NCBI GenBank assembly: GCA_030749725.1
Contig: JASMJM010000135.1
Span: forward strand, 1 to 64,000
Source: Pseudomonadales bacterium
GTDB taxonomy: Bacteria > Pseudomonadota > Gammaproteobacteria > Pseudomonadales > Azotimanducaceae
Length of the DNA: 64,000 nucleotides
Direction: 5' to 3'
Position 1 is the stretch's first letter. The number at the start of each line of letters is the position of its first letter. The notes below the pieces were generated by a model, which did not search any database, was not told the DNA's origin, and was given only the letters and a program-made list of their open reading frames with translations. Made by a program: the position numbers and the translations under genes. This document shows, piece after piece, positions 27,004 to 44,839 of this stretch.

Positions 27004-28575
27004 TTAGCTATTTGAGGCCACATCCTGAGTGACGTTCACTCCATTGTCTTGCCGAGCCAACTGATAAGCCCAGCGCCCGTAAAGGTAAAGGCCATAAGCT
27101 GATGCGAATCCCACCACTGCCATTACATACCACACCATGCCAATATTGTGCGTCTGGTATAGCAGTTCTGTTAGCTTTGCCGGAGATTCACCGGTAAATT
27201 CTACCAGGTAGGTGAAGGATTCTCCCTGTGGGATCGCGTCGATCCCTCCGGCATCCATGCCGCGATCGGCCAACAACTCTCGCGAGAATCGTTCCTTGGA
27301 GGCCCAAGTATCATACCAATAGGGCCCCAGAAATCCTTCCAGCGTCCAGCCGATACCGAGTGCAAACTGTGAAAAACCCAGGTACATGGCCTTCTTCTGC
27401 GTCGGCGCAATATTGCCGAGGTACTCGGAGAATTTGGGACTGGACAGCATCTCCCCCATGCTGAATAAGAGAATGGCAATGACCATCATCCAGGCCCACT
27501 GAACGCCACCGATCAATATCAGCGCGGCAGTACTGAGCAAGGTGCCGACGATCATACTGTTGATTGCTTTCAGAGTAGCGCTGTAGGCAGCTACCAGAAA
27601 ACAGATCAACATGATCAATCCGGCATTGAGATTCAGCAGGCCCTCCGGTTTTATAAACGTACCGCTTTGATCCATTCCCAGGAAGAAGATCGCAACGCTG
27701 TTACGGGTGCCACCCTCACCGAACAGATCATTGACGATAACTGACGTATCCACCCAGTCGTCGATATGTGCCGGCAGTACATCAAAAAACGCATTGAACA
27801 TGAACCAGAATCCGGAAAACACCAGCAGATACCGCCACAGTTCAGGTTTGGCAAACTCCTTAAGAGAATCCAACCACAGCGCATCCTGTCTGATTTCACC
27901 TGCAAGTACTTTTTGCCTGAATGCCAGTCTGTCTTCCCTGCCCGGCTCCTTATACAAAAGCAGGAGGATAAAATTGATGGAGATGATTGCAGCACAGGCG
28001 AAAAAGACGTACTTCCATTCCAACTGGCGCAACTGGGCCGCCACCAGAGGACCGAGAAATCCGCCTATGTTCACGGTCTGGTAAAAGACTCCCCAGGCCA
28101 TTGACGAGTTCCTACGGTTGGTCGCTTTGACCAGCGTCCCCTGAATGCCCGGTTTAAAGATACCGGTGCCGAACGCCAGCACCACTGCACCGAAGAAAAA
28201 ACCCCAGAATGTTGGGAAAAAGGCCATCAGCAGGTAGCCGAGAATCTTGATCACGGTGGAAAGGAAAATCGTCTCCTTATAGCCAAGGCGATCAGCCAGT
28301 CCGCCGGTAAGCACCGGTACAAAACTCTGAACCAAAGCCCACACACTCAAGATAATGCCGAATTTGCTCAGCGTTATCCCAAGTCCGCCGGCTGAAACAG
28401 GATCCTTGGCATACAAGGTAGCCGTAGCCTTTACACCATAGAAAGCAAGCCGTTCGACCATCTCCATGCCACCCAGAACCCAGAATACATAACTCAAACT
28501 GGCCAGAGCAGCAAACAGACCCAGTTGTTTCGCATCCGTTACTGCAGTCGAGTGGTTTTCTTCCTGGTTGTTCAT
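27004..28575 (-). CDS. POT/PTR-family proton-dependent peptide transporter (MFS)
   Basis: A 523-aa inner-membrane transporter with about 12-14 segments. The ATG at 28575 has GGAAGGA upstream; the frame continues to 28770 without support. POT signatures are visible: ERLAFYGVKATATLY in the first helix, GTGIFKPGIQGTLVK, and FYQTVNIGGFLGP matching FYxxxNxG. The family imports di- and tripeptides, and some members take other small nitrogen compounds. It diverges from the GH127-like gene, with only 52 bases between the start codons, so both promoters must overlap. Confidence 0.9.
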   Translation of the reverse strand: MNNQEENHSTAVTDAKQLGLFAALASLSYVFWVLGGMEMVERLAFYGVKATATLYAKDPVSAGGLGITLSKFGIILSVWALVQSFVPVLTGGLADRLGYKETIFLSTVIKILGYLLMAFFPTFWGFFFGAVVLAFGTGIFKPGIQGTLVKATNRRNSSMAWGVFYQTVNIGGFLGPLVAAQLRQLEWKYVFFACAAIISINFILLLLYKEPGREDRLAFRQKVLAGEIRQDALWLDSLKEFAKPELWRYLLVFSGFWFMFNAFFDVLPAHIDDWVDTSVIVNDLFGEGGTRNSVAIFFLGMDQSGTFIKPEGLLNLNAGLIMLICFLVAAYSATLKAINSMIVGTLLSTAALILIGGVQWAWMMVIAILLFSMGEMLSSPKFSEYLGNIAPTQKKAMYLGFSQFALGIGWTLEGFLGPYWYDTWASKERFSRELLADRGMDAGGIDAIPQGESFTYLVEFTGESPAKLTELLYQTHNIGMVWYVMAVVGFASAYGLYLYGRWAYQLARQDNGVNVTQDVASNS

Positions 28576-28627
28576 GTTATTTTCCTTCCAGCAAAGACTC
28601 AGCCCTTCCAATTGGAGGCTATGTGCC

Positions 28628-30913
28628 ATGATATCATGCGCAATCAGCAAAGCTGGAATGCCACTGGGATGGAGCAGACGAGTGAGCAAAGACAACGATG
28701 ATTTGGTAACGACAGTGCACGGCGAACGCGTCAACGTCCTGTCGACGCGCTTTATCAGCCAGGACAGCATTCTCTATTTCGGCAACTGGCATCATACGCG
28801 TATAGGAGATGTAGACAGCCACGTCTCCAATACGCAATACAACGCCTTTGAGTTTTCCTTCAGGGGCCCTACTGTGAAGTGGATCGGTCGGAAACAAAGT
28901 GATCATGGCCATGCGGATGTTTACATCGACGGGGAATTCCAGCAAACCGTCGACTGCTATTCTGATACTACTTTGAGCGACGTAGTCAAATTCCAAACAA
29001 CCGGGTTAAGTGACGAACGGGTACACACGCTTAGAGTGGTGGTAAGGAAAGACAGAAACCCCGCAGCAACCGACTGTTGCCAGGACGTTAGCCGGATCCA
29101 ATCCGTCACACCGGTAAGCTATCCGGCAGAGATCGCCAGATCCATGGCAGACGAGTATAAACAGATACAAAATGGTGCCAAGGAGTACCTTACGCCGGAC
29201 TCATGGTCGCCTGTGTCAAATGATGCGAATGCACCTGCGCAGGGTGTGGCGATTCTCTCAGGCGTGTTAAGCGATACGTTCAATCGAAACATCGACTACC
29301 TAAACCACTGTTTTTCAAGTTCCACCTATTGCGATGGCATCGGCTGGAGCCGGTGGCTTCCTGCATCCAACCATGGGCGAATGCTCGCAGGAGCTGGCAA
29401 TGCCCTGCGCTGGGGCGAGAGGTTCGACATGCGCAATATAGTGGATAGTATCGTCGTCGCCATCGAGGAGCGCATGCGGGATGACGGATACTTCAATTAC
29501 TACGACGAAGGGAATTCGTATGCCCATAACTCAGGCGGGTACAGTGAACGTAAGAACTATGACCGTGTCTTCTGGACGAGAGGCCTGCTCGCCGCAGGAA
29601 TGGCAGGCAATGCAAGCGCTTATAGGCTGTTGCGTAGGATGTACGATTGGTTTAACGCGTCTCCCTACCTGCCTTGGCTGCTGATTGGCGGCAATGTAAC
29701 CAACGGTCTTCCTGGGGGGCCATTGATGCATTTGTCTCCGGCCGGAACGGACGATGATCTATTGGTCACAGAAAGGTACTATGACCAGGACTACTGGATG
29801 GCTGAGCTAAAAAATAGAGAGCCTCTCTGCCTGAGCCACTACCCTGGTGAACGACCTCACTGCTATGACCTCCTGGCACTGGAGGCGTTCGTCGATGAAT
29901 ACAGGGCTACCGGCGCCAGTAAATACATCGATGCGGCAACAGGCGGATGGGAACTGTACAGAGAGAGTTTCAAGCATATTGGCGGGGCGACTGCCCTTTG
30001 TGAGGACATGAATGGGGGAATGGATGCGCCTTATCCACCCGGATCCTGCTATATCACCAGCGGACACACCGGCGAGTTGTGCGGCAGCGTATTCTGGATA
30101 AACGTAAACAGCAAGTTGCTGCAGCTATATCCCGGAGAAGAGAAGTACGCAGTCGAGATCGAGGAGTCAATCTACAATGTGATTGCGGCAGCCCAGGATA
30201 GCAGGGGCTACAAAAGGTACCATAACAGACTGCAAGGTAAGAAAGACGTACCGCGCTGTTTGAACACCTGCTGCGAAGTATCTTCGACAGGACTGATCGC
30301 GAGGCTGCCCGAACTCGTCTATTCCACCAGCGTGGACGGTCTTCATATCAACCTGTACGCCTCGTCCGAGATCACCTGGAAGCAGGATGGGGATGATGTG
30401 AGCCTGAGTATAACAACGAGCTTCCCCTTCAGCCCTACGGTAACGATCAAGGTATCAGTGCCGACCTCAAAGTCCATGAATATCCGCATCCGCGTGCCTG
30501 GTTGGGCAACGACCGATATGAAGGTGATGGTGGGCGACTCGGAGTATGCATCCGGAACACCCGGAAGCTATCTATCCGTGGCGCGGACATGGTCGGATGG
30601 TGACAGGTTGACTTTGACGCTGCCAATCAGTTTCAGCGCCGTGAAGTATACCGGTCTCGATCAGATCGAGGGCAACTACGACCGTTATGCGCTGATGTAT
30701 GGCCCTATTCTGATGGCACTGCAATGTGAATTGGAAGGACGCGATGGCGTACCGCACCTGGCCGTTGCTGCAGATAAGCTCGCGGACCTGCTGACACCCG
30801 TACAAGGGAGTACGCTGACATTCGATGTAAGGGGATATCCGGGATATCGATATGTGCCATATTGGATGATCGACACCGAGTCCTTTACCTGCTTCCCGAT
30901 CGTCCAACCCTGA
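28628..30913 (+). CDS. GH127-like glycoside hydrolase with N-terminal beta-sandwich module
   Basis: A 761-aa protein whose catalytic (alpha/alpha)6 barrel resembles the beta-L-arabinofuranosidase family (GH127, former DUF1680). The Zn site of that family, E-x-C plus adjacent C-C, is present as E483-L-C485 and C548-C549. E459 is a candidate acid/base. Residues of about 55-165 form an extra beta-sandwich with a VYIDGEFQQTVDCYS core. The ATG at 28628 has GGAGG nine bases upstream; GTG 28682 is an alternative. No signal peptide is evident. It presumably cleaves a furanoside. Neighbours are a POT transporter and unrecognised genes. Confidence 0.82.
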   Translation: MISCAISKAGMPLGWSRRVSKDNDDLVTTVHGERVNVLSTRFISQDSILYFGNWHHTRIGDVDSHVSNTQYNAFEFSFRGPTVKWIGRKQSDHGHADVYIDGEFQQTVDCYSDTTLSDVVKFQTTGLSDERVHTLRVVVRKDRNPAATDCCQDVSRIQSVTPVSYPAEIARSMADEYKQIQNGAKEYLTPDSWSPVSNDANAPAQGVAILSGVLSDTFNRNIDYLNHCFSSSTYCDGIGWSRWLPASNHGRMLAGAGNALRWGERFDMRNIVDSIVVAIEERMRDDGYFNYYDEGNSYAHNSGGYSERKNYDRVFWTRGLLAAGMAGNASAYRLLRRMYDWFNASPYLPWLLIGGNVTNGLPGGPLMHLSPAGTDDDLLVTERYYDQDYWMAELKNREPLCLSHYPGERPHCYDLLALEAFVDEYRATGASKYIDAATGGWELYRESFKHIGGATALCEDMNGGMDAPYPPGSCYITSGHTGELCGSVFWINVNSKLLQLYPGEEKYAVEIEESIYNVIAAAQDSRGYKRYHNRLQGKKDVPRCLNTCCEVSSTGLIARLPELVYSTSVDGLHINLYASSEITWKQDGDDVSLSITTSFPFSPTVTIKVSVPTSKSMNIRIRVPGWATTDMKVMVGDSEYASGTPGSYLSVARTWSDGDRLTLTLPISFSAVKYTGLDQIEGNYDRYALMYGPILMALQCELEGRDGVPHLAVAADKLADLLTPVQGSTLTFDVRGYPGYRYVPYWMIDTESFTCFPIVQP

Positions 30914-30923
30914 ATAGTCGATA

Positions 30924-31904
30924 CTACTTCGAGACGTAGTCTTCCAGGTTGTCGATGGAATAGGTCAATCGATCGCCTTCGATCAGGGTATCGTTGCGTA
31001 TGAACCAGAGGCCCTCGATCCAGGGAACCGTCTTGGGGACCCCCCAGTCAGGCTGCCATGGCACGTCCCGTGCCTCGAAAGCGAAATGGTCTTGCGGGCG
31101 CATGGGCTTGCCCCAGGTGACGCGCTGTTTCAGACCCAGAACGCGCGTCATCCACCAGGGGTTGTTGGGATCGGCTTGCTGAGTGGCCTTTCCGCTGAGG
31201 CGGAACTCGAGGTCGACCAGATCCCTGATAAACTTGTGGTATTGGACCTCGACTCTGCCGCCCGGCAGGGGCAGCGTCAGATCCTTGGCCATCACACTGT
31301 TGCCGTCGAAGTCCAGCCTGTCGACCGCTTCTGCCTGGCCAAAGGTTACGTGCCACTGATAACCCGTGATCCTAGCCGACTCTGCCTCCTGGTGCAGCTC
31401 GAAGGTGACACTGGGAGATCCCCGACGAAGGCTAAGATCCGTATAAATCCTGGCGCCGTTGGGGAAGCTGAAATGGTATCTCATGACCAGCTCATCCGCA
31501 GATTCGGAGATGACTTCGACTGTGGGTTGCACGTGATCCAACTCGGTATTCTGCCAGGGAGATCCTGGCACGAGCGTCATCAGATTCAGGTTGTTCTTGT
31601 TAACGTACCAACGTCCTTCGCCTGGATGATAGAAGTCGAACCAGATGATGCCGACCTTCGATGGGCGAATTCGCAGGATTCCGTTGTGACAGGACATGGT
31701 GTCATCGTTTCGATCCCGGTACCAGATCGGCTGGGGCCAGCGTTGGGTGTTCAGCTTCGCGGGATCGTTAGTCTCGATGGATCTGGCGCTCCCCATTGGT
31801 TCGGTTGTCTCCGTGGTCTTCGCCTGTACAACGAGGTCGCACCCAGCACAAAGAATGCAGGCCAGTAAAGCAGTCCAGCAACGACCTAAGGAGACGAAAC
31901 CCAT
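30924..31904 (-). CDS. Unrecognised lipoprotein, probably beta-sandwich
   Basis: A 326-aa protein I do not recognise. The ATG at 31904 follows GGGAGGAGG. The N-terminus (TALLACILCAGC) ends in a lipobox-like site at Cys22, so it is likely a lipoprotein in the cell envelope. The body is rich in beta-strand and Trp (WYVNKNNLNLMTLVPGSPW, YQWHVTFGQAEAVDRLDFDG), as in galactose-mutarotase-like or lyase folds. It lies convergent with the GH127-like gene (10 bases apart) and upstream of another unknown protein on the same strand. A role in handling the same glycan is an inference from position. Confidence 0.6.
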   Translation of the reverse strand: MGFVSLGRCWTALLACILCAGCDLVVQAKTTETTEPMGSARSIETNDPAKLNTQRWPQPIWYRDRNDDTMSCHNGILRIRPSKVGIIWFDFYHPGEGRWYVNKNNLNLMTLVPGSPWQNTELDHVQPTVEVISESADELVMRYHFSFPNGARIYTDLSLRRGSPSVTFELHQEAESARITGYQWHVTFGQAEAVDRLDFDGNSVMAKDLTLPLPGGRVEVQYHKFIRDLVDLEFRLSGKATQQADPNNPWWMTRVLGLKQRVTWGKPMRPQDHFAFEARDVPWQPDWGVPKTVPWIEGLWFIRNDTLIEGDRLTYSIDNLEDYVSK

Positions 31905-31955
31905 ATCCTCCTCCCGGAGAAAGAACATCATATCCTGAGCGCTAATGACTGTAAA

Positions 31956-32909
31956 TTAATCATGGCCGAGGGGCCTCACGCCAAATGTGAACTGCTGACC
32001 TTCCACGAAAGGCGCCACCAATTCCAGGTTTTCGAAGGAAATCCCACCGGGTATGGGAGACTGGCTGGCCCAATAGCAGGTTCTGCCATTCACCTGCGCA
32101 AAGAGTTCATCAGGCGGCGATTGACACAGCCAATACTGCAGGGCCGATCTACCCTGGTATCGCCAGGGCGGGGCCGTATCTTTACTATACACTGCCGACG
32201 TTGGATCTAACTCGTCACTGATCGCCTCAATCACAACGCCGGTTTCGCCGGTACTGCTCAGCCGATCGCGCACGAATCGTCGATGAGGAGCAAAGCCGTC
32301 ACCGCTGAAATCCGGCCACAGATCCGCAGCCACAACATCCTCGTCGGCAAGCATCAGTCTTCTCAGTCGAGCGTAGTTTCCCATGGTGGCGGTCAGGATG
32401 ACGTAATCCAATTCAACGGAGTCATCGTACGCTGAGGTCGTGAAACTGACTTCGTAGGGTTTGTCCTGACAGAATTCAACCGTCAGGGAAACGTGGGCTC
32501 CGTTATTGAATTCCTCGATCTCAATTCGGGTCGACATATTCTCATCTGTCAGTTCGTAATCATCACCAAACCAGAGTCGTTTGCCGCGCGTCTGATCGGC
32601 ATCACTAAACTCAAGTTCCGAGAATCCCCTTCTCGTCTCTCCCTTGGGGATTGGCTCAATCGCTATGTAATTGATCATCCGCCCCAAGGGATGATCGAGG
32701 TAAGGCGCATAGATTCGAATCAAGCCCCGCGGGCCGGGCATGGGTGCGAGACCAATCTGTAATCCATCAAGGTGACCGCAAACGGGCCTCACCCTCTGCG
32801 AGCCGGGGGGAGTTATAAATGAGCCCCGCGCGACAGGCAGCCCGAGCTTCTCCCATTCTGAATCTAGCGTGCTCACGATTCCACTCACCGATTGTGTTCC
32901 ATCTGCCAT
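31956..32909 (-). CDS. Unrecognised beta-rich protein
   Basis: A 317-aa protein without signal peptide or recognised motif. It is acidic, and the strand-like segments carry many Asp-Glu and Tyr-Trp residues (KRLWFGDDYELTDENMSTRI, GRTCYWASQSPIPGG). The pattern fits a galactose-mutarotase-like or concanavalin-like beta-sandwich, but I cannot name a family. The ATG at 32909 lacks a clear ribosome-binding site. It ends 51 bases before the lipoprotein start and probably shares its transcript. The PQQ dehydrogenase diverges from it 88 bases away. Confidence 0.55.
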   Translation of the reverse strand: MADGTQSVSGIVSTLDSEWEKLGLPVARGSFITPPGSQRVRPVCGHLDGLQIGLAPMPGPRGLIRIYAPYLDHPLGRMINYIAIEPIPKGETRRGFSELEFSDADQTRGKRLWFGDDYELTDENMSTRIEIEEFNNGAHVSLTVEFCQDKPYEVSFTTSAYDDSVELDYVILTATMGNYARLRRLMLADEDVVAADLWPDFSGDGFAPHRRFVRDRLSSTGETGVVIEAISDELDPTSAVYSKDTAPPWRYQGRSALQYWLCQSPPDELFAQVNGRTCYWASQSPIPGGISFENLELVAPFVEGQQFTFGVRPLGHD

Positions 32910-32997
32910 TGTATTCAGACGAGCCTCTGTTTGCTTGGTTTTCTGTTTCTCTATACCATTTATGCAAATTCAAAAAACGTAAGCGAGGCACCCGGCC

Positions 32998-34914
32998 ATG
33001 CGTAGACACTTCTTGATCCTGCTAACCGTGTTATCGACAGCCCACATACAAGCGGACGAAATCGAGTGGCCTGCTTACGGGGGCGGGCCAGGCGGCGGTC
33101 ACTACACCGCTGCCACCCAGATCACCAAGGATAACGTCAACCGATTGGCGAAGGCGTGGACGCATCGCTCCGGAGACTTCCGAGGCGGTACGCAGTCCAT
33201 CACCGAGGGTGGTAGAGGGGCCCCGTCGAGCAGCTTTATGGTAACGCCCATCATGGTCAACGATACGCTGTATTACTGCACACCCTTCAATCGCGTATTC
33301 GCTCTCGACCCGGCTACAGGTATTGAACGATGGGCATTCGATCCAGAAGTCGATATGGATATTGAATTCATGACGAATTGCCGTGGTGTCAGCAGTTGGA
33401 CAGAAGCAGATGCCAGTGATGCACAGTGTCAGCACCGCATAATCTTGGGCACTCTGGATGCGCGCCTCATCGCACTCGACGGTAAGACCGGCAAGAAGTG
33501 CCCGGACTTCGGTACGGATGGCGAGGTAGACCTGACGGAAGGGCTCACAGACCATGGTCCTAACGATTATGGAGTGACCAGTGCACCAGCCATTATTGGC
33601 GACCTCATCGTTACCGGTGCATTTGTCCTCGACAGTAGTCGCCCCGATATTCCTGCCGGTGTAGTGCGCGCCTACGATGTAAGGACAGGCGATTTTGTCT
33701 GGGGCTGGAATCCCGTCCACCCGGATCACGAGCAACTGGATGCGCAAGGTAAATACGTTGCCGGTACCACCAATGTCTGGAGTACCATCTCGGTAGATGC
33801 CGAACGGGGTCTGGTCATCGTACCGACCGGGAATTCATCACCGGACTACTATGGTGGCGACCGGGGAGGGCACCTTGACTACTTCAGCAGCTCCGTGGTC
33901 ACGTTGGACGCAGCCACCGGAAAGGTGGTCTGGCACTATCAAACTGTGCACCACGACATCTGGGATTACGACGTACCGGCGCAGCCGACCCTGGTCGATC
34001 TCACCATCAACGGACAGACCAGACCGGCCGTGGTTCAGGTAACCAAGATGGGGCTGACTTTTGTCCTCGACCGGGAAACCGGCGTGCCGCTACATCCCAT
34101 CGAAGAACGGCCCGTGCCCCAGGAAGGCGCCGTGCCCGGCGAATACCTGAGTGCCACGCAGCCCATACCCCTGAAACCGGAACCCCTGCATCAACTGGGA
34201 ATCTCGCTGGATGATGCATGGGGGCTCACGTTCTGGGACAAAGGCAAGTGTCGGGAGGCACTGGAAGCCATAACCACAGGACCCATTTACACGCCACCCG
34301 GCAGCAAAGGCACAGCATTCTACCCATCGAATTTGGGGGGTAACAACTGGGGTGCGCCCGCAGTAGATCCAAATCGCAAGATCATGATTGCCAACACAAA
34401 ACATATGGCGATCGGAGTAAAACTCACGGAACAGAAGGATTGCCCGAAAGGTCTGCCATTTCCGCAGAACGGCTCACCCTATTGCGTAATCATGAATCCG
34501 ATCACATCACCGTGGGGCGTGCCTTGCACCGCACCTCCCTGGGCGACGTTAGCTGCCGTCGACCTGGAAAGTGGTGATACGCTCTGGAAGATTCCGCTCG
34601 GTACTCTTAAGAATCTGGCGCCCTGGCCCTTCTACCATTTCATTGACAGCAGCGTCGAGATGGGCGGACCCATGATAACCGCCAGCGGCCTTGTCTTTAT
34701 CGCAGCAACGTCCGACAGTTATATTCAGGCGTATGACATCGACGACGGCACGCAGCTATGGCGTGATGAATTGCCAACCAGCGGTAACGCAGTGCCGATG
34801 AGCTATACCTATAGGGATGAGCAATACATCGTCATCGCCGCAGGCGGGCACTTTATCTCGCCCCTGCCTTCCGGGGATTACCTGGTTGCTTTCAAGTTGG
34901 AGAGCGATGACTGA
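32998..34914 (+). CDS. Secreted PQQ-dependent glucose-type dehydrogenase
   Basis: A 638-aa eight-bladed propeller quinoprotein with a signal peptide (MRRHFLILLTVLSTAHIQA). It oxidises a sugar or alcohol in the periplasm with PQQ and passes electrons to quinone or cytochrome. EWPAYGGGPGGGHYTAATQI and DYDVPAQPTLVD match membrane glucose dehydrogenase, the latter holding the catalytic Asp. The five N-terminal membrane helices of that enzyme are absent, so this form is soluble or peripheral. No PQQ synthesis gene is in the window. It sits among carbohydrate genes, where a pentose or hexose substrate is plausible. Confidence 0.88.
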   Translation: MRRHFLILLTVLSTAHIQADEIEWPAYGGGPGGGHYTAATQITKDNVNRLAKAWTHRSGDFRGGTQSITEGGRGAPSSSFMVTPIMVNDTLYYCTPFNRVFALDPATGIERWAFDPEVDMDIEFMTNCRGVSSWTEADASDAQCQHRIILGTLDARLIALDGKTGKKCPDFGTDGEVDLTEGLTDHGPNDYGVTSAPAIIGDLIVTGAFVLDSSRPDIPAGVVRAYDVRTGDFVWGWNPVHPDHEQLDAQGKYVAGTTNVWSTISVDAERGLVIVPTGNSSPDYYGGDRGGHLDYFSSSVVTLDAATGKVVWHYQTVHHDIWDYDVPAQPTLVDLTINGQTRPAVVQVTKMGLTFVLDRETGVPLHPIEERPVPQEGAVPGEYLSATQPIPLKPEPLHQLGISLDDAWGLTFWDKGKCREALEAITTGPIYTPPGSKGTAFYPSNLGGNNWGAPAVDPNRKIMIANTKHMAIGVKLTEQKDCPKGLPFPQNGSPYCVIMNPITSPWGVPCTAPPWATLAAVDLESGDTLWKIPLGTLKNLAPWPFYHFIDSSVEMGGPMITASGLVFIAATSDSYIQAYDIDDGTQLWRDELPTSGNAVPMSYTYRDEQYIVIAAGGHFISPLPSGDYLVAFKLESDD

Positions 34915-35066
34915 TTAGGGCCTCACGACCAAACATCCAAGGAACATCACGCCTGCAAACTCCATTGAGTCTGCCCACCGTGGGCTGAATGAGTCAGGCA
35001 TATTGGAATCGATCCAGGCTATCAGCACCTGTTCACACCGATTCCGGGTAGCGAATAGGTTGACAG

Positions 35067-35666
35067 CTACTTAACCGCTCTCACCTTGCTCTTTCTGCTC
35101 TTGGTAGATTTTCCTTCTACTTTTTCGCGCAGCTTCGCCACCTCGTCAGAGAGTTCTGACAGCTGCTGACAGACCTGCGTCAGCAGGTCGTCACTCGCCA
35201 CCGGACTCTCTGGCTCGCCTTTGGCACGGGTGCATTCATAGGCAGCTTTCAAGAGCAGAAGGCTATCCCGTTCTTCGGCAATGAACCTTCCTAACAGGCC
35301 CGCTGTGGCGGGGTCGATCGTCTTGTCTGCCAATAGTTTCAAGAGCTGATCTTCGCCATCTCCTTCACCTAATTTATCGTAGCCAAGCTGCTCGAATTTC
35401 GCCATATCGCTCATGTCGGACGCGATCATCTGCAACGTCTTATCGAATCCTTCGGCACGCTTTTCCTTTAGGGTAAAGCCCAACTCACAGAGTCTCTTCT
35501 CAAATGTGGCGGCGTGTTCACCCTCCCGCAGGGCCACTGTTTTCAGCATCGATTGGATCTCCGGATCACATACCGTCGACCAGCAATCGAGTAACTCAAA
35601 TCCCTGTCTCTCACCGTTGACGATGGCGTTCAGAGTGCCTATGTAGGTTGGTTTTTTTGCGGTCAT
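35067..35666 (-). CDS. Ferritin-like/rubrerythrin-fold protein with coiled-coil basic tail
   Basis: A 199-aa protein starting at the ATG at 35666 after GAGGAACG. The first 130 residues form a four-helix bundle with possible metal ligands in the pattern of ferritin-like proteins: NGERQGFELL, LREGEHAATFE, EQLGYDKLGE and FIAEERDS. A coiled coil (LLTQVCQQLSELSDEVAKLR) and a Lys-rich C-terminal tail follow. The tail may bind nucleic acid or a partner. It may store iron or act in oxidative stress defence, but a non-metal scaffold cannot be excluded. Confidence 0.65.
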   Translation of the reverse strand: MTAKKPTYIGTLNAIVNGERQGFELLDCWSTVCDPEIQSMLKTVALREGEHAATFEKRLCELGFTLKEKRAEGFDKTLQMIASDMSDMAKFEQLGYDKLGEGDGEDQLLKLLADKTIDPATAGLLGRFIAEERDSLLLLKAAYECTRAKGEPESPVASDDLLTQVCQQLSELSDEVAKLREKVEGKSTKSRKSKVRAVK

Positions 35667-35998
35667 TATCGTTCCTCGAGTCCACTGGATCTGATGTAGG
35701 AAGGCGCAATTATATGCTAAATGGCCTTGGCTGGGCACTTCATCTCACCGCTCCCACACTTCGCTGCGCTCACGATGGGGAGCGACGAGGGACCTCGCGA
35801 CCGGAGCCCATCATGACCAACCTTGGCAAGACGTGGTTCATTCGGTTTATACTCACGGCGCTTTCTGCGCGTTAAGACTGGTGTACACGACAGGCCCTGC
35901 AGCCAAACGGCAGTGACGCTCACAACCAGAACAACGTTGGAGGAGAAGGCTGCAAGGTCGCAGTCGAGACCTAGGCCGCCAAGCCCAAGGAGAAGGTT
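35667..35998. other. Divergent intergenic region upstream of the ADP-ribosylglycohydrolase operon
   Basis: The 332 bases separate a minus-strand ferritin-like gene from the plus-strand operon and should hold both promoters. I cannot pick out a convincing -35/-10 pair. An ATG at 35813 opens only a 20-codon frame. The inverted pair CGCTCCC and GGGGAGCG (about 35750-35785) could be a regulator site. AAGGAGAAGG at the end is the ribosome-binding site for the next gene. Confidence 0.4.
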
Positions 35999-37654
35999 AT
36001 GAAGAAGCTCAGGTTCAAAAGTGTGCAATGGTTCGGCTGCCTCGTTGTCGCCGCATCGATCACAATCGCCGTATCGTCCAACCAAGCGTTAGCTGCAACC
36101 GCTACGACGGAACCGCTTCGCCTAGAAAAGACCGATCTCGAGGACAAGATCCGCGGCGGCTGGGCGGGCCAGATGATCGGTGTCAGCTTTGGCGCACCGA
36201 CTGAATTCCGTTACCTGGGGCGGGTGATCCCCGAAGATCAGTTGCCAAAGTGGACCCCCGATCGAGTACTGAACTCCATCAATCAGGATGACCTTTACGT
36301 CGACATGACGTTCTTCGCCGTCATCGACGAGAAGGGCTGGGATGCCACCACCGATGACTTCGGAGCCGCCTTCCGAGACTCGAAATACGCCCTCTGGCAC
36401 GCCAACTATGCCGCCCGACGTGCGCTGCGACGCGGGGTACCGGCCACCGAGAGCGGCACGCCAGCGGTCAATCCGCACGTCAACGACATAGACTTTCAGA
36501 TCGAAGCCGACTTCGTCGGGTTGCTGACACCCGGCATGCCGAATACGGCGACGGAATTGGCACAGCGGGTCGGGCGTGTGATGAACGGCGGCGACGGCAT
36601 CCTCGGCGGCGTGTTCGTTGGCGGCCTGTACTCCGCCGCGTTCTTCCAGGACGATCCTCGCAAGATCCTCGAAGCCAGTCTGGCGCTGCTGCCACCGGAA
36701 AGCTTGTACGCACGCATCATCTCCGACACGCTGCGGTGGTCGGCCGATAACCCGGACAATTGGCTGGCAACCTGGCAGCTCATCGAGGACCAGTACGGCA
36801 GCAGAGACGTATGTCCACAAGGCGCCGGTGTGGCCTTCAACATCGACGCTCACCTCAATGGCGCTTACATCGCCCTCGGACTGCTGTACGGAGACGGTGA
36901 CTTTGAAAAGACGATCAAGATCTCAACCCGAGCCGGCCAGGACTCCGATTGCAATCCTGCCTCAGCCGGAGGTGTACTTGGCGTCGTTCTGGGTTACGAG
37001 CGCATCCCCGAGAAATACAAGTCGGGTATTGCCGCCATCGCGCAGGAGAAGTTCGCGTTCACCAATTACTCCTTCGAGGACATCGTAACCCGCAACATCG
37101 ACAAGGCTGTCGAGGCAGCCATTCGCAACGGCGGCTCAATCACCAACGGTGTGATTGAGGTGCCGATACAGTCACCGGTACCGGCAAAGGTAGATCTATT
37201 CGAAGACTACGGCCAGGTAAAGGAGCGCATCAAGCCCAATGACCCGCGCGTTAAGCGGACCGGCAACTGGACGATCGAGTCGTCCTCCCCGGGTCGCAAT
37301 TTCAAGTGGACCTTCGCTAACGCCGACGAGGCAGGCGCCGAGGCGCAGGTCGATTTCGAGGGCAGCGGCGTCATCCTGACGGCAGCCCATCGTCCTAACG
37401 GCGGCACTGTGCAGGTCTGGCTCGACGGTGAAAGTCAGGGAGTCTGGGACACCTACTCTGAAGAAGGTGCGGAGAACCGCTGGGCGACCAAGCTCGACGA
37501 AGCAGTCTGGCACCGTTTCGGCCTCGCGGGCGGGCGCCACACTCTTAAGGTCCGAGTCCTCGGCCAACCCTACACCCGCGGCGAGGTAACCAGCGGTGGC
37601 ACCGGATTTTCCATGCAGGACATCATCGTATTCCATCACGAGCCGGCTCGATGA
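35999..37654 (+). CDS. Secreted ADP-ribosylglycohydrolase-like protein with C-terminal beta-sandwich
   Basis: A 551-aa protein with a clear signal peptide (cut near ALA-AT), so it acts outside the cytoplasm. Residues of about 45-370 are an ADP-ribosylglycohydrolase-type helical bundle: KIRGGWAGQMIGVSFGAPTE, the metal-binding QDDLYVDMT, and the second metal site GQDSDCNPASAGGVLGVVLG. Residues of about 430-548 form a beta-sandwich with VWLDGESQG and GGRHTLKVRVLG. Family enzymes cleave N- or O-ribosyl bonds, usually inside cells. Its stop overlaps the next gene, a ribose-type binding protein, by four bases. A role releasing a ribosyl sugar for import is inferred. Confidence 0.85.
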   Translation: MKKLRFKSVQWFGCLVVAASITIAVSSNQALAATATTEPLRLEKTDLEDKIRGGWAGQMIGVSFGAPTEFRYLGRVIPEDQLPKWTPDRVLNSINQDDLYVDMTFFAVIDEKGWDATTDDFGAAFRDSKYALWHANYAARRALRRGVPATESGTPAVNPHVNDIDFQIEADFVGLLTPGMPNTATELAQRVGRVMNGGDGILGGVFVGGLYSAAFFQDDPRKILEASLALLPPESLYARIISDTLRWSADNPDNWLATWQLIEDQYGSRDVCPQGAGVAFNIDAHLNGAYIALGLLYGDGDFEKTIKISTRAGQDSDCNPASAGGVLGVVLGYERIPEKYKSGIAAIAQEKFAFTNYSFEDIVTRNIDKAVEAAIRNGGSITNGVIEVPIQSPVPAKVDLFEDYGQVKERIKPNDPRVKRTGNWTIESSSPGRNFKWTFANADEAGAEAQVDFEGSGVILTAAHRPNGGTVQVWLDGESQGVWDTYSEEGAENRWATKLDEAVWHRFGLAGGRHTLKVRVLGQPYTRGEVTSGGTGFSMQDIIVFHHEPAR

Positions 37655-38589
37655 GCTGCCTTCGCTGGTTGGCGCTGCCGACCCTCCTTTTGCTCGCGTC
37701 CTGCGGCGGTGAAGAGTCTGGCCCCGCCAAACCCCAGGTCGCCTTGATCATGAAGTCGCTCGCCAACGAGTTTTTCTCGACCATGGCGGCAGGTGCTGAA
37801 CGGCATCAGGCCGAGAACAGCAGGCGCTATGATCTGATCGTCAACGGTATCAAGGATGAGCGCGACCTCAGCCGCCAGGTTGCGTTGGTCGATGAGATGA
37901 TCGCCCGGGGCGTTCAGGCGATCGTGATTGCACCGGCTGATTCGAAAGCGCTCGCTCCCGCGCTGGGACGTGCCAGCGAGGCCGGCATTGTCGTAATCAA
38001 CATTGACAACAAGCTCGACATCCAGGTGCTCGAGCAGGAAGGGCTCGCCATTCCCTTCGTCGGCCCCGACAATCGGGCCGGGGCGCGCAAGGTGGGTGAC
38101 CATTTGGCGCAGGCCCTCGAATCCGGCATGCAGGTCATCGTCCTCGAAGGTACACGCAGTTCATTCAACGCCCAGCAACGTCGACTCGGTTTCGAGGATG
38201 CCATGCGCGACGCCGGGATCGTCATCGCCGACTCTCAATCGGCCAACTGGGAGATGGCGCAGGCCAATACGTTCACGACCTCGATGCTGGCCGAATACCC
38301 GCAGGCGCGTGCTGTGCTGGCCTCCAATGACAGCATGGCGCTCGGAGCATTGGCAGCAGTCAAAGCGGCGGGCCGGGAGGGTGAAGTCACGATCGTTGGC
38401 TTCGACAACATTACTGCCGTTCAGGCGGCGATTCGCGAGGGCAGGATCCTCGCGACCGCAGACCAACACGCCGACCAGTTGGCGACTTTCGGCATCGACT
38501 ACGCCCTCAAACTACTGGCCGATTCGAACCAGACACTCGACGACCTGGAAACGCCGGTCGACCTGATAACCGCTTCCTCCCTCGACTAG
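37651..38589 (+). CDS. Ribose-type ABC transporter substrate-binding lipoprotein
   Basis: A 312-aa periplasmic binding protein of the RbsB/LacI-like type. The lipobox LLASC gives Cys18, so it is membrane-anchored, unusual for a Gram-negative sugar-binding protein. The mature protein shows VALIMKSLANEFFSTMAAG, ARGVQAIVIAPADSKALAPA, FVGPDNRAGA and VLASNDSMALGALAAV, the standard sugar-binding features. The ATG overlaps the glycohydrolase stop by four bases, and the ATPase gene begins six bases after its stop. The ligand is most likely a pentose or nucleoside-like sugar, by family. Confidence 0.9.
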   Translation: MSCLRWLALPTLLLLASCGGEESGPAKPQVALIMKSLANEFFSTMAAGAERHQAENSRRYDLIVNGIKDERDLSRQVALVDEMIARGVQAIVIAPADSKALAPALGRASEAGIVVINIDNKLDIQVLEQEGLAIPFVGPDNRAGARKVGDHLAQALESGMQVIVLEGTRSSFNAQQRRLGFEDAMRDAGIVIADSQSANWEMAQANTFTTSMLAEYPQARAVLASNDSMALGALAAVKAAGREGEVTIVGFDNITAVQAAIREGRILATADQHADQLATFGIDYALKLLADSNQTLDDLETPVDLITASSLD

Positions 38590-38595
38590 CCAGGG

Positions 38596-40104
38596 ATGGC
38601 GAGCTCGACAGTGAAGCCACCGATCGTCTCTGTTCGGGGTCTGTCCAAGGACTACGCTGTTAGAGTCCTCGATGGCGTTGACCTCGACCTGGCTGCCGGC
38701 GAGATCCACGCGCTGATCGGAGCCAACGGAGCCGGCAAGAGTACGCTGTGCCGGATTCTCGCCGGCCTCACGCCGGCCTCAAAGGGTGAGATTACACTGA
38801 TGGGCGATGATTTCCGACCGTCCGATAAACGCGATGCCGAGGACCGGGGGGTGCAGATCGTTCAGCAGGAACTCAACCTGCTGCCCTCTCTGACGGTCGC
38901 CGAGAACCTGTTTCTCAATCATTTCCCGCACCGGTATGGCTGGATCGATTACCAGAAGCTGCACGCTGACGCCGAAGTGGCGCTGCAACGCGTCGGCCTG
39001 CAAGCCGTCAACCCGCGCACACCGACCGGCACCCTCGGCGTCGGCAGTCGGCAACTGGTCGAAATCGCGGCTGCTCTGGTGCGTGACTGTCAGCTGTTGA
39101 TCCTCGACGAACCGACGGCGGCCTTGACGCCGGTCGAGATCTCGCGGCTCTTCGATTGCGTGCGTGAACTGAGCGAAGCGGGAGTGAGCATTCTCTACGT
39201 CAGCCATCGGCTCGAGGAGATTCGGACACTGTGTGACCGCTTTATCGTGCTGCGTGACGGGCGCAAGGTAGGAAGTCGCAACACTGTCGACAGCTCAAGC
39301 GAAGAGATGGTCGCTCTGATGGCCGGCGAGGCGGTAACGGCATCAAAGCCGTTCCAATCCCATCGGCAGAATCGGGTTGCTCTTCGCGTCGAGGACCTCT
39401 GCCGCGGCAATCAGGTCCGCAATGTAAGCCTGGAAGTGAAGTGTGGGGAAAGACTGGGAATCGCCGGCCTGGTAGGGGCGGGCCGCACGGAACTCCTGCG
39501 CGCCATCTTCGGCGCCGATCGCGCGGACAGCGGGACCATCCGGCTGGGAGACGACGCATCTATCGAACGCTGCAGCCATCCACGTCAGGCAGTACGCCGC
39601 GGCCTTGCGTTGGTCACGGAAGATCGCAAGCAGGACGGTCTTTTGCTGCCCCATTCGGTCCGCATAAACGCCTCTCTCGCCCGTCTCACGCATTCCTTGG
39701 GCTGGATCGATCGTAGAGGTGAGGTGGCTCGCGTCGAGGCACGTTGCCGGACTCTCGAGACTCGATTCCACAGCGTCGAGCAGCCCGTCGAGGAATTGAG
39801 CGGTGGCAATCAGCAGAAAGTCGTACTGGTCAAGTGGCTCGAATCGGACGCCGACGTATTCCTGCTCGACGAGCCCACCCGCGGCATCGATGTCACTGCC
39901 CGCCAACAGATCGACCGTCTGTTCGAGGATCTCGCACGTCGCGGCAAGGCCTTGCTGATCGTGTCGAGCGATCTTGACGAACTCATGCAGTTGTGTGATT
40001 CAATCGTCGCAATGGCGGAGGGCCGCGTGGTCGCTCGATTCCAACGAGGGTCCTGGTCGCGCCAGAGCGTAATGGAAGCAGCCTTTGGAGATACGTCCCC
40101 ATGA
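38596..40104 (+). CDS. Sugar ABC transporter ATPase, RbsA/MglA-like (two ABC domains)
   Basis: A 502-aa double ATPase of the carbohydrate uptake CUT2 family. The first domain has Walker A GANGAGKST and Walker B LLILDEPTAALTP. The second has a degenerate Walker A region, GLVGAGRTELLRAIFGAD, a signature LSGGNQQKVVLVKWL and VFLLDEPTRGIDV. Degeneracy of one nucleotide site is normal for RbsA. The last four bases overlap the permease start, so the operon is tightly coupled. Substrates of CUT2 importers include ribose, galactose and autoinducer-2. Confidence 0.93.
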   Translation: MASSTVKPPIVSVRGLSKDYAVRVLDGVDLDLAAGEIHALIGANGAGKSTLCRILAGLTPASKGEITLMGDDFRPSDKRDAEDRGVQIVQQELNLLPSLTVAENLFLNHFPHRYGWIDYQKLHADAEVALQRVGLQAVNPRTPTGTLGVGSRQLVEIAAALVRDCQLLILDEPTAALTPVEISRLFDCVRELSEAGVSILYVSHRLEEIRTLCDRFIVLRDGRKVGSRNTVDSSSEEMVALMAGEAVTASKPFQSHRQNRVALRVEDLCRGNQVRNVSLEVKCGERLGIAGLVGAGRTELLRAIFGADRADSGTIRLGDDASIERCSHPRQAVRRGLALVTEDRKQDGLLLPHSVRINASLARLTHSLGWIDRRGEVARVEARCRTLETRFHSVEQPVEELSGGNQQKVVLVKWLESDADVFLLDEPTRGIDVTARQQIDRLFEDLARRGKALLIVSSDLDELMQLCDSIVAMAEGRVVARFQRGSWSRQSVMEAAFGDTSP

Positions 40105-41078
40105 GCGATCATCTGCCAACCCGGCCGGCGCCGTCAGTGGGCAGAGTATTGGCCGAGCGAGCCGGTCTCGCCGGCGCGCTCCTGCTGCTGATCCTGGTCT
40201 TCGGTAGTCTCAGCAGCTCGTTCCTCAGTACGCGCACTCTGGTTTCGATCGCCAACCAGATACCGGACCTTACCGTGATCGCCGTCGGCCTCACGCTCGT
40301 CCTGATTTCGGGTGGCATCGACCTGTCGGTGGGCTCAGTGCTGGCCCTGTGTTCGGCGGTGGTCGGTGTCATGATGGTCGACGCCGGCCTGTCCATCGGC
40401 TCCGCCGCTGTGATTGCGCTAGCCGCGGGCGCCATCTGCGGCCTGGTGAGCGGTTCCATCACGGTGCTGGCCGGGTTGCCTTCCTTCATCGTCACGCTCG
40501 GCATGCTCGAAGTGGCACGGGGTGGCGCCTACCTCATCACCGACTCGCAGACCAAGTACATCGGCTCCTCGGTGGAGATGATGGCGGCTTCCCTGCCTAT
40601 CTTGCGGGTCTCGCCATCGTTCCTCGTCGCAGTCGCAGTCGTCGTTCTAGCGCAAGTGCTGCTGACCCGTACAGTTTTTGGTCGTTACCTGATCGCCATC
40701 GGCACCAACGAGAACGCCGTGCGCATGTCGGGCATCGACACACGTCCCTACCGCATGGCTGTATTCGTGATCTCCGGAGCGCTGTGCGGACTCGGCGCCG
40801 TCATGCAGACCAGCCGGCTCGCCACCGCAGATCCGAACGCCGCCATCGGGCTCGAACTGTCGGCCATCGCGGCTGCAGTCATTGGCGGCACCAGCCTTAT
40901 GGGCGGTCGCGGCTCGGTCGTCAATACGTTCTTCGGCGTGCTGATCATCGCCGTCCTGCAAACGGGCCTGGCGTCAGTCGGTGCAAGCGAGCCGATCAAA
41001 CGTGTCATCACGGGCAGTGTCATCGTAGTGGCTGCCCTGCTCGACGTGTGGCGCAGTCACTGGCAGAGCCGTACGTGA
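40101..41078 (+). CDS. Sugar ABC transporter permease, RbsC-like
   Basis: A 325-aa membrane permease with about 9-10 segments, forming the channel of the CUT2 importer. Family features include LVLISGGIDLSVGSVLALCS, GLVSGSITVLAGLPSFIVTLGM and ALCGLGAVMQTSRLATADPN. It starts in overlap with the ATPase stop. It is followed 24 bases later by the LCIB-type carbonic anhydrase gene, which may be carried on the same transcript. Confidence 0.93.
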   Translation: MSDHLPTRPAPSVGRVLAERAGLAGALLLLILVFGSLSSSFLSTRTLVSIANQIPDLTVIAVGLTLVLISGGIDLSVGSVLALCSAVVGVMMVDAGLSIGSAAVIALAAGAICGLVSGSITVLAGLPSFIVTLGMLEVARGGAYLITDSQTKYIGSSVEMMAASLPILRVSPSFLVAVAVVVLAQVLLTRTVFGRYLIAIGTNENAVRMSGIDTRPYRMAVFVISGALCGLGAVMQTSRLATADPNAAIGLELSAIAAAVIGGTSLMGGRGSVVNTFFGVLIIAVLQTGLASVGASEPIKRVITGSVIVVAALLDVWRSHWQSRT

Positions 41079-41102
41079 GAGGAGTTGGGAGAACTCATAG
41101 GT

Positions 41103-41828
41103 ATGAATTGGGAACATGTCTTAAGTACTGAATTCGTAGACGCAATACCCTTCAATGAATTCGCCATACAGATTCAGAACAAGTTAACAAAACGAGGGTT
41201 TAACGCCGACAACACTCTTTTTGCAAATTGCACGTGTCGTGATGAAATCAATTATCACGATCTTGACATCTTCGCAAAACACTGGGGAGAAAACTTCTTT
41301 CTTGCCGGCCTGGGTGGTTACCCTTCCTCCGGAGCAACAGGATTCCGCGCTTGCCTGGACCATGTTCCTGACGACGGAAATCTGCTCCTCTTGTACGGAC
41401 CTCACATCGGCATCAATGAAAGCGGCAGTCTCGGTAGAGTAAGCAGAGCAGGATTGCAGCACGAAACAAGTGCTTGTGGAGCTCTCATCGGCCTCACACG
41501 GAAAATCGCCCGAGACGATGATTACCAGCCCGTTTTCAATGAACTTGACGCCGAACAGCACCTTCTGGAGAAAGGTATGCAGGATCATTTCTTGGAGATT
41601 TCGGCAGCCGAAAACTCGATAAAGAAAGTGACTGAAGTTTCTTTTTCTCTCATTGACAAGAAGATAAACGAAATCCTGGACTTCCTAAAACCTGCCAAGC
41701 AACTTGCGTTGATCGGGGGTATTACCATCAATACAAGTGCCGCCTCAGAGGATTACTTCTCTCTCCTATCGGCTGAGATCGTTCAGTACAAAACCGACGG
41801 CTCAAATCACAGAGAGGATATTTTCTAG
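41103..41828 (+). CDS. LCIB/C-type (theta-class) carbonic anhydrase-like protein
   Basis: A 241-aa protein resembling the low-CO2-inducible LCIB/C domain of algae and some bacteria, a Zn carbonic anhydrase related to the beta class. Visible landmarks are TCRDEIN with C45, GLGGYPSSGATGF, DHVPDDGNLLLLYGPHIGI with H87, and HETSACGA with C125. C45, H87 and C125 are likely zinc ligands and D47/R46 the dyad. The ATG at 41103 is chosen, with GGGAG 11 bases upstream. Position after a sugar importer is odd. Some homologues are inactive as anhydrases, so activity is unproven. Confidence 0.72.
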   Translation: MNWEHVLSTEFVDAIPFNEFAIQIQNKLTKRGFNADNTLFANCTCRDEINYHDLDIFAKHWGENFFLAGLGGYPSSGATGFRACLDHVPDDGNLLLLYGPHIGINESGSLGRVSRAGLQHETSACGALIGLTRKIARDDDYQPVFNELDAEQHLLEKGMQDHFLEISAAENSIKKVTEVSFSLIDKKINEILDFLKPAKQLALIGGITINTSAASEDYFSLLSAEIVQYKTDGSNHREDIF

Positions 41829-42534: not shown

Positions 42535-42697
42535 TTGTATGAAGCCTGCATCAGCACTGCAGTTTCTTGCAGCCGCTGCAACTACTCGTTAGCCGATGCA
42601 TCAACTGACTGCGCATCGGCAAATGCGCTCCCTATCAATGTGTTACCATAATTGTGAATTGGCGCAGCAAGTATTTCATGGTGAAGGAGATTTCGCG

Positions 42698-44764
42698 ATG
42701 AGTGAAGAGATTCTGACGTTTTGCCCCCTGTGCGCAGGCCATTGCGCTGCCAAGGTAACGGTTGAAGACGGAAAGATCATCAAGTGGGACAGGGACACGG
42801 AAAGCGGCATACCTTCCGAGATGTGTCCTCCCATGAAGGGACGGTCCAACATGGAGATATCAACCCATCCCGCACGGCTCAAGTACCCACAAAAGAGGGT
42901 CGGTACGAGGGGTGAGGGAAAGTGGCAGCAGGTATCCTGGGACGAGGCAATCGATGACATCGCGCAGAAGCTGACTGAGATCAAAGAGCAACATGGTCCT
43001 GCCGCATTTGGCGTTGGTCTGGGGGAACCGAAGGGGTTGGAATTCGCCTTTGGTCAAAGGCTGGCAAGCGCCTTCGAAACTCCGAACGTGGCCACACCGT
43101 CCCATCTGTGCGCGGCATCCAAAATAGCCGGTGCCCTTTATACGTTTGGCGGCGGGATTCCCTACGGGGCCTCCGACGCGGAAAACCCACCCCAGCTCAT
43201 TGCCGTATGGGGTGCCAACATCGTGCAGACCGAAGGGGCCCATTCGCGGGAGTGGTTGCGGGAAACCTTGAAGAAGGGTGCCAAGCTGATCGTCATCGAT
43301 CCTAAGAGGATCGACATTGCCGGTAGAGCCGACCTTTGGATTAGACCCAGACCGGGAAGCGATGGCGCCTTGGCAATGGGATTGCTAAAGGTCGTCATCG
43401 ATGAAGAGCTATACGACAAAGATTTTGTGGCTGACTGGACCCTTGGTTTTGACAAACTCCAGCAAGACGTAAAGACGTTTACCCTTGAAGATGTAGCGGA
43501 TGTAACCTGGGTGCCCAGAGCGCAGATAGAACAGTTCGCCCGCATGGTAGCCGAGTGTAAACCGGCCTTGATCCGTATGGGCAATGTTTTCAGTCACGGA
43601 GTCAACAGTCTTCAGGCCGCGAGGGCAATCTGTATTCTGTCAGCCATCACGGGCCCGTCGAATATCCCAGGCTGGGATCTGTCCGTCAGACCAGCCAAGT
43701 GGACGCGACCCGGCCGGTTGATGCTGCTTAGCAGTTTTCCAAGAGAGGCGGAGCAGTCCCTCGGGGGTAAATACAAGTGGGCCATGATGACCGCCTACAT
43801 CCCGTACCAGGCACTGACCCGGGGAATGCTGGATGAAAAAGTGAAGGCAGCGATCTATATACTCAGCAACCCCCTGTCGAGCTATCCCAACGCACGTGAA
43901 ACCCACGCTGCCCTCATGAAGTTGGATTTGCTGATCGTCTCTGAGCTGTTTATGACCCCGACGGCTGCCATGGCTGACTATGTGTTGCCCGCGGCCACCA
44001 CCGGTGAGCATGACACGACCGGTTACTGGGGCGGACCGCTGCGGGCATTCCCGAAGTTGGTGGATCCGCCGGGAGAGGCCTGGCCGGATGTGAAGATCAT
44101 TATCGAACTGGCCAAACGACTTGGTTTAGGGTCGCACTTTCCCGCCAGTGAGAAAGAGGCGGTGGATTTGGTGCTGGAGCCGAGTGGCCTTTCTTGGGAT
44201 GACTTTAAGGACAAGAGACTACTTGGCGGAACGACAACGCATAAGGAACCGGAAGCGCTGAAGGTCGCGACCCCGTCCGGCAAAGTGGAAATATTCTCCG
44301 AGCAGATACGGGATCTCGGCAGCAGTCCGATGCCTGTGTGGAAGGAATTGTCCCGACTTCATGGCGGAGATCTATCGGACGAGTTCCCCCTGCTGCTAAC
44401 GACACGATTGGAGGATGCTTATAAACTCACCGGCTTTAAGCAGCTCGAATCCGGTAGAAGACGTAAACCGGAACCGACCGTAGAGATGCACCCGGACACC
44501 GCTGATTCGTTGGCGCTTGAGGAAGGGGAGTGGGTTTATATTGAAACGACTAAAGGCCGTATAAAGCAAAAGCTCGATCTGGACAAGAATCTTGACCCTA
44601 AGGTGGTATACGCTTCATTCGGATGGTGGTTTCCGGAAGAACCTGACAACCTGTTTGAGTGGGACAGATCTAACGTCAATATTCTATTCGATACTGACCT
44701 GGAAGAGCCGGTAACGGGAACGGTGGAAGTGCGTGGTGTCCCTTGTCGGGTATCCAAGGGTTAA
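42698..44764 (+). CDS. Cytoplasmic molybdopterin (bis-MGD) oxidoreductase with one [4Fe-4S]
   Basis: A 688-aa DMSO-reductase-superfamily catalytic subunit. C9, C12, C16 and C43 bind a [4Fe-4S] cluster. ATPSHLCAASK places C138 where the Mo or W ligand normally sits. Later domains show VWGANIVQTEG, IDPKRIDIAGRADLW and the C-terminal MGD-binding DTADSLALEEGEWVYIET. There is no twin-arginine signal, so it is cytoplasmic. The ATG at 42698 has AAGGAG nine bases upstream. The protein resembles the acetylene-hydratase and thiosulfate-reductase-like branches. The substrate is unknown. No small Fe-S or membrane subunit adjoins it on this strand. Confidence 0.87.
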   Translation: MSEEILTFCPLCAGHCAAKVTVEDGKIIKWDRDTESGIPSEMCPPMKGRSNMEISTHPARLKYPQKRVGTRGEGKWQQVSWDEAIDDIAQKLTEIKEQHGPAAFGVGLGEPKGLEFAFGQRLASAFETPNVATPSHLCAASKIAGALYTFGGGIPYGASDAENPPQLIAVWGANIVQTEGAHSREWLRETLKKGAKLIVIDPKRIDIAGRADLWIRPRPGSDGALAMGLLKVVIDEELYDKDFVADWTLGFDKLQQDVKTFTLEDVADVTWVPRAQIEQFARMVAECKPALIRMGNVFSHGVNSLQAARAICILSAITGPSNIPGWDLSVRPAKWTRPGRLMLLSSFPREAEQSLGGKYKWAMMTAYIPYQALTRGMLDEKVKAAIYILSNPLSSYPNARETHAALMKLDLLIVSELFMTPTAAMADYVLPAATTGEHDTTGYWGGPLRAFPKLVDPPGEAWPDVKIIIELAKRLGLGSHFPASEKEAVDLVLEPSGLSWDDFKDKRLLGGTTTHKEPEALKVATPSGKVEIFSEQIRDLGSSPMPVWKELSRLHGGDLSDEFPLLLTTRLEDAYKLTGFKQLESGRRRKPEPTVEMHPDTADSLALEEGEWVYIETTKGRIKQKLDLDKNLDPKVVYASFGWWFPEEPDNLFEWDRSNVNILFDTDLEEPVTGTVEVRGVPCRVSKG

Positions 44765-44781
44765 CGCGTCTCGATAATATA

Positions 44782-44818: not shown

Positions 44819-44839
44819 AAGAGGTTCGCGCGGCGAATG

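Follow-up and report, generated by a model that had tools for sequence, protein, structure and literature searches.

Introduction

In carbohydrate esterase family 2 (CE2), an SGNH esterase domain is partnered by an N-terminal jelly roll (CE2_N, PF17996), which, according to passages of one study (PMC2661963), resembles binding modules and in CtCE2 abuts the cleft and is not the cellulose binder; the same passages record that one mutation in CjCE2A raised KM. Here we analyze two genes of a Pseudomonadales bacterium (family Azotimanducaceae, assembly GCA_030749725.1) that lie within the first 64,000 nucleotides of contig JASMJM010000135.1, hereafter the window, and whose products are predicted to share this fold in modules of their own. 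The partner domains differ from that of CE2: protein A carries glycoside hydrolase family 127 (GH127) domains, and protein B carries the Pfam domain ADP_ribosyl_GH instead. We refer to A as GH127-like and to B as ADP-ribosylglycohydrolase-like (ADPRH), and to relatives' loci by L-numbers (L003, L106, L114 and so on).

Three further described systems are close to this locus. The C-terminal domain of BT_2959 (Protein Data Bank (PDB) entry 3nqh, 'glycosyl hydrolase') is the top structural match of both modules, although it is only about 20% identical to them; carbohydrate-binding module (CBM) families CBM35 and CBM6 are also alike in fold, but neither A nor B matches Pfam CBM_6 or CBM_35 at E 1 or better. 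The third system comprises ribose or nucleoside salvage clusters of Bacteroidota that include an ADPRH-family gene; relatives of B are located in clusters of this type. Unlike in those clusters, B is coupled to an ATP-binding cassette (ABC) importer, with no adjacent ribokinase or nucleoside hydrolase in the window. A ribose-scavenging system of Bacteroides thetaiotaomicron was reportedly described by Glowacki in 2020.

Results

The modules of A and B are homologous

The genes and modules under study are the following, where A5 is a profile of 37 outside modules that includes neither A nor B.

28715..30913, + strand: gene A, GH127-like; start inferred; PF07944 and PF20736
about 28745..29104, + strand: N-terminal jelly-roll module of A, residues 60-179 of the 781-residue reading; profile A5 match at 28760-29098 (E 4.8e-30); structure model
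35999..37654, + strand: gene B, ADP-ribosylglycohydrolase family, with a hydrophobic N-terminus; PF03747
about 37190..37651, + strand: C-terminal jelly-roll module of B; profile A5 match at 37223-37567 (E 2.3e-18); structure model

An initial annotation of the window had proposed that A and B share the motif order DGE-Q, D-x-YS and HTL, and that two unlike catalytic folds thus carry a related module at opposite ends. Both motifs that it quoted are present in the sequences of A and B, and their resemblance goes beyond chance: the Smith-Waterman score of A against B was 60, compared to 27.4 +/- 4.7 for shuffled sequences, and none of 2000 shuffles reached it. Direct similarity is modest, with 31% identity over 72 residues in blastp (E 0.002) and 20% identity in the module alignment. 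When A was used as a query on 150 genomes of the bacterial family, its own included, the matches included the C-terminal modules of four relatives of B, with E values between 2.5e-13 and 9.1e-7. Profile-profile comparison of two sets that have no row in common, one led by A (43 non-ADPRH modules) and the other by B (15 ADPRH modules), gave a probability of 99.8% (E 5e-30), with the reservation that the rows of both sets had been gathered via a profile holding A and B, so that the comparison was not wholly blind. Profile A5, which was drawn from the same collection of rows, matched the genome (3,842,708 bases) at two places and no more with E up to 10, namely the modules of A and B. Of ten control profile comparisons, seven gave at most 0.7%. 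Three scored higher: two with a CBM35 set of two rows (45% and 19%), and one of the A3 profile with CBM_X2 (90.7% over 36 columns), probably through overlap at the edge with adjoining CBM_X2 domains.

That the motif match could stem from chance, or from convergence on a common fold, is an idea favoured by the modest direct similarity and by the single-sequence searches of the own genome, which recovered B neither with A's module (E up to 10) nor with A. It is contradicted by the profile results, the shuffle test and the matches to the modules of B relatives. The searches of the family genomes, the profile-profile comparison and the own-genome profile search rule out this source, and we leave it next to no probability.

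The modules share a predicted jelly-roll fold

AlphaFold2 models, each covering a single module, had a mean predicted local distance difference test (pLDDT) value of 95.6 for A and 86.2 for B, and are predicted to adopt the same jelly-roll fold. Both pointed to 3nqh as the best solved match, with Z 17.5 over 114 residues at 1.4 A for A, and Z 15.3 over 125 residues at 2.2 A for B. The next structural matches were largely tied, and included the CE2 esterase 2waa, a two-domain mannan esterase, the insert of a cycloisomaltooligosaccharide glucanotransferase, MiXBM and CBM35 domains. For 2waa, the values were Z 12.9 over 108 residues at 2.4 A (A) and Z 13.3 over 116 residues at 2.6 A (B); for the CBM35 structure 2w47, they were Z 12.0 and 11.1, respectively. 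Eph receptor domains, which are unrelated, appear in the list for B as well, with Z of about 10. Thus, the comparison of predicted structures that had been suggested for the two modules shows folds that agree, with the same best solved match for each, and the suggested profile comparison yields the significant match given above.

Sequence searches of the PDB were weak, with a best E of 0.053 for the A1 profile, 1.7 for the module of A alone, and, for full-length B, only 6dre at 0.28. The A4 profile matched 3nqh (0.0027), and A5 matched 5aa7 (0.0005) and 3nqh (0.012). No paper naming the structure 3nqh was found among the matches listed in the literature search.

The module family is widespread

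A scan of 84,980 species' genomes retained 80 of 98 relatives; since it employed one degenerate peptide pattern, the sample favours modules with that motif. The host open reading frames (ORFs) of the 80 loci comprised a single cluster of 46, 14 ADPRH proteins joining B, one GH127 full-length relative of A (L106) and 19 others. Three members of the large cluster that were sampled by Pfam (L071, L088 and L073) are GH27-type. Pfam analysis of 17 chosen host proteins showed GH27-, GH29- and GH36-type enzymes, GH127, ADPRH, subtilases, a LamG protein and several proteins without a named catalytic domain; the module thus accompanies catalytic domains of six kinds or more. On the module stretch of these 17 proteins, PF17996 scored above its cut-off in seven and below it in five, and was absent in five. 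Searched over the own genome in six frames, it gave at best 19.1 bits. A and B therefore carry diverged relatives of a known, promiscuous CE2_N/CBM35-like jelly-roll module. Because this module is found with at least six catalytic domain kinds, motif sharing is a weak hint of a common target.

Outside the window, a weak PF17996 match (14.4 bits) lies on contig 14 of the genome, at 90439-90657 (L149); it was not recovered by the A5 profile.

Concerning the relationship between the two modules within the family, the 15 ADPRH modules grouped in the module tree (SH-aLRT 83, not starred) and A was placed elsewhere, among non-ADPRH modules. The approximately unbiased (AU) test nevertheless kept the alternatives that place A with the ADPRH modules (p 0.42), with B and L003 (p 0.41) or with L106 (p 0.47). 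Four gammaproteobacterial ADPRH modules (L004-L007) share 31-33% identity with the module of A, versus 34% for its nearest non-ADPRH row. The first two AU results and the identity to L004-L007 would accommodate copying of the module between the genes of B and A, in either direction, within this lineage. The identity of only 20% between A and B, the position of A in the best tree and the Clostridia relative of A that shares its N-terminal architecture all speak against such copying, which we consider very improbable.

Gene A has no apparent export signal

Gene A lies in an open frame at 28568-30913 (+), with a 781-residue reading. The GTG at 28715 is a likelier start than the far-upstream reading, because the divergent gene on its other side probably begins at 28578.

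27004..28578, - strand: divergent major facilitator superfamily (MFS) transporter gene adjoining A; start inferred; PF07690, 100.4 bits for the longer reading

This neighbour scored 69.5 bits for the oligopeptide:H+ symporter subfamily, below the cut-off of 130.2. The catalytic and middle domains of A were both above their Pfam cut-offs (PF07944, 34.4 bits versus 24.9; PF20736, 72.9 versus 24.2). The E-x-C and CC stretches of its GH127 core align with solved GH127 enzymes including 4qjy; as judged on a subset of ligand positions, some of the aligned residues may serve as cysteine nucleophile and zinc ligands. For the aceric acid hydrolases (NF049879), A scores 86 bits, below the equivalog cut-off of 950.

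The 150 family genomes held no full-length relative of A besides A itself, 299 genomes of the phylum gave the own match and three core-only matches (E 1e-20), and a plasmid search found no place covering 80% of A. L106, from Clostridia, is 35% identical over 754 residues, and its gene (5764-8937) encodes two recognisable tandem modules ahead of the GH127 core, and perhaps a third, degenerate one.

Export was judged from 12-residue N-terminal hydropathy. Near the start of A, the strongest value was 0.43 when read from GTG 28715 and did not exceed 1.63 with the start placed as far upstream as possible; the same measure gave 2.65 in B and 2.52 in L106. This measure shows A to be apparently devoid of an export-type N-terminus and B to have one. 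If A is cytoplasmic, it sits in a different compartment from B. GC content at third codon positions (GC3) is 0.62 in A versus 0.74 in B.

Two genes on the - strand, at 30924-31931 and 31956-32909, lie between A and a pyrroloquinoline quinone (PQQ) dehydrogenase. Neither has a Pfam match at E 1 or an NCBIfam match at 0.01, and the former has a lipoprotein-like N-terminus as judged by eye.

Gene B is coupled to a monosaccharide-type importer

The ADP_ribosyl_GH domain of B scored 121.4 bits (cut-off 26.2) and covers profile positions 1-286 of 287. The gene overlaps, by ATGA, the binding-protein gene of an importer.

37651..41078, + strand: monosaccharide-type ABC importer; binding protein 37651-38589, ATPase 38596-40104, permease 40101-41078

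The nearest types were allose and ribose for the binding protein, arabinose for the ATPase, and multiple-monosaccharide and ribose for the permease. Neither ribokinase nor nucleoside hydrolase was found beside B in the 21 kb of the window examined; a ribokinase-like gene on another contig of the genome scored 211.6 bits, below the cut-off of 299.65.

Six bases after the importer permease, at 41085-41828 (+), is an LCIB_C_CA family gene (beta carbonic anhydrase-like, 193.7 bits), which may belong to the importer transcript. The importer region is followed by genes for a molybdopterin oxidoreductase and a 4Fe-4S protein (42596-45934). Further on, adjacent large ORFs of 698 and 886 residues (53792-55888 and 55889-58549, +) gave no NCBIfam match at E 1e-10.

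The module is a standing domain in relatives of B

Among 295 genomes of the order of L114, 32 held a B relative at E 1e-30 or better. B relatives split into a first, closer ADPRH subfamily and a second, remoter one. The module was present in all 11 first-subfamily loci and, in diverged form (domain E 4e-11 to 0.004), in 16 of the 19 fetched second-subfamily loci, with none in L168, L170 and L175. It is hence a standing C-terminal domain in the relatives of B, and the label 'accessory', initially given to both modules, fits that of A better than that of B.

We examined the surroundings of 26 B-type loci, the window included, with L192 (a duplicate) and L193 and L194 (second subfamily) set aside. 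Six of them had a ribokinase-like gene (in two gene orders), six a ureide/sugar permease and five a nucleoside hydrolase. In an annotated record of Parabacteroides distasonis, a ribokinase, an ADPRH-family protein, a nucleoside hydrolase and a GRP transporter follow in succession; in a Spirosoma record, a ribokinase and a GRP transporter flank an unlisted B relative, and no nucleoside hydrolase is listed there. No title or abstract start treating module-bearing ADPRH proteins was noticed among the matches listed in the literature searches.

The plasmid search with B found one place covering 80% of it. On the Cnuibacter plasmid NZ_CP020717.1 (L201, 5938-8568), the protein that contains an ADPRH-type match is annotated as CBM35 domain-containing, and a sugar ABC transporter is encoded next to it. 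In L012, L014, L016, L020 and L024, other ADPRH-family proteins from the bacterial family of the window end in a different C-terminal stretch that looks beta-rich by eye.

GH127 genes occur near close relatives of B

The initial annotation had placed A and B 6 kb apart and read the shared module as a hint that both recognise the same polymer or surface. They are indeed neighbouring genes, with a measured separation of 5.1 kb between the genes and 8.1 kb between the modules. The two modules, the only copies found in the genome, do lie close together, yet this was spotted after the fact.

In 3 of the 11 loci, a GH127 gene lies no more than 10 kb from the ADPRH gene of the first subfamily (no more than 5 kb in two), where random placement, in a null that takes no account of the clustering of sugar genes, predicts 0.19 (P 0.0007). 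In L114, the GH127 gene begins where the ADPRH gene ends, the two overlapping. One of the three neighbours is weak (E 4.9e-10, 7.4 kb off). In the second subfamily the count was 0 of 33 (Fisher 0.012 versus the first); four weaker places (E 1e-31 to 1e-34) stood outside these 33, and their contigs hold no GH127 match either. L114, which belongs to the three, was alone among the genome scan's 14 ADPRH loci in showing GH127 in its fetched flank. No module match was found in the GH127 neighbours of L187, L189 and L192. The GH127-ADPRH neighbourhood link is thus suggestive, and a functional link of A with B is possible.

These data bear directly on the proposal of joint action by A and B on a single glycan or surface that the shared module recognises. 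The two module copies 8.1 kb apart, the excess of GH127 neighbours with the overlapping genes of L114, and the importer ATPase, nearest to the arabinose type, all lend it some weight. However, the module sits on many unlike proteins, the export-type N-terminus of B has no counterpart in A, GC3 differs between the genes, the GH127 neighbours in L187, L189 and L192 gave no module match, and the neighbour statistics ignore sugar-gene clustering and find no parallel in the second subfamily. We regard joint action as unlikely.

Discussion

The observation made in the initial annotation, a related module in two unlike enzymes, is confirmed, and its interpretation is partly supported: the case for a common polymer or surface is weakened by the variety of catalytic partners and by the differences in export-type N-terminus and GC3, and keeps some ground in the two genome copies and in the GH127 genes beside some B relatives. 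We consider it likely that a widespread jelly-roll family of roughly 120 residues, CE2_N-like and of the CBM35/CBM6 fold group, explains both modules, with B releasing pentose and A being cytoplasmic. This family is attached to many carbohydrate-active and other secreted proteins, and the shared motif would report a fold family, not a common ligand. The data show the homology, the common predicted fold, the broad distribution of the module, the two copies found in this genome and its fixed C-terminal place in relatives of B; the roles of the two modules and enzymes given below are proposals.

By analogy with the CE2 esterase jelly roll, the module of B would be packed against the catalytic domain, with the shaping of the substrate site as its most likely role. 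B itself most likely serves pentose salvage: it would act outside the cytoplasm on a small glycoside, and the pentose set free would be taken up by the coupled ABC importer, ribose being the most likely sugar and arabinose a less likely one. The module of A would be an N-terminal add-on to a GH127-type enzyme, which, because it lacks an export signal, probably acts in the cytoplasm, on an imported oligosaccharide.

Several points weigh against this explanation. The cut-off of PF17996 (27.9 bits) is reached by neither module, A scoring 15.7 bits and B giving no match at E 1 or better. The start of A is putative, and its relative L106 has a hydrophobic N-terminus. The importer is tied to no single sugar, all three components being below naming cut-offs. 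A ribokinase is absent from the fetched flank, in some cases a short one, of 20 of the 26 B-type loci, and several of these loci adjoin GH27, GH31, GH38 or GH43 genes. Lastly, a passage of a review (PMC9487903) credits the CE2 jelly roll with facilitating carbohydrate binding.

Some of these data can be read in another manner. Exported module-bearing ADPRH-fold proteins such as B could be exo-glycosidases that cut furanosyl pentoses (ribose or arabinose) from extracellular glycans or nucleic-acid debris, in concert with GH127 enzymes that attack these molecules as well. The shared module would then recognise this furanoside-bearing material, and A and B would form one such pair. This reading gains, and the explanation by a widespread fold family loses slightly, because the importer ATPase is nearest to the arabinose type and the module of A is as close to some ADPRH modules as to others; even so, we hold it to be improbable, a little more so than joint action in general. 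The explanation that we favour continues to be the widespread module family, with pentose release by B and a cytoplasmic A.

The resemblance of motifs has become a firm domain assignment, and a shared, widespread add-on domain is by itself no evidence of a shared substrate. As a testable candidate for extracytoplasmic pentose release, we put forward the exported ADPRH subfamily with a standing C-terminal jelly roll, whose relatives are encoded near genes for ribokinase, nucleoside hydrolase and sugar permease and, in some loci, near GH127 genes.

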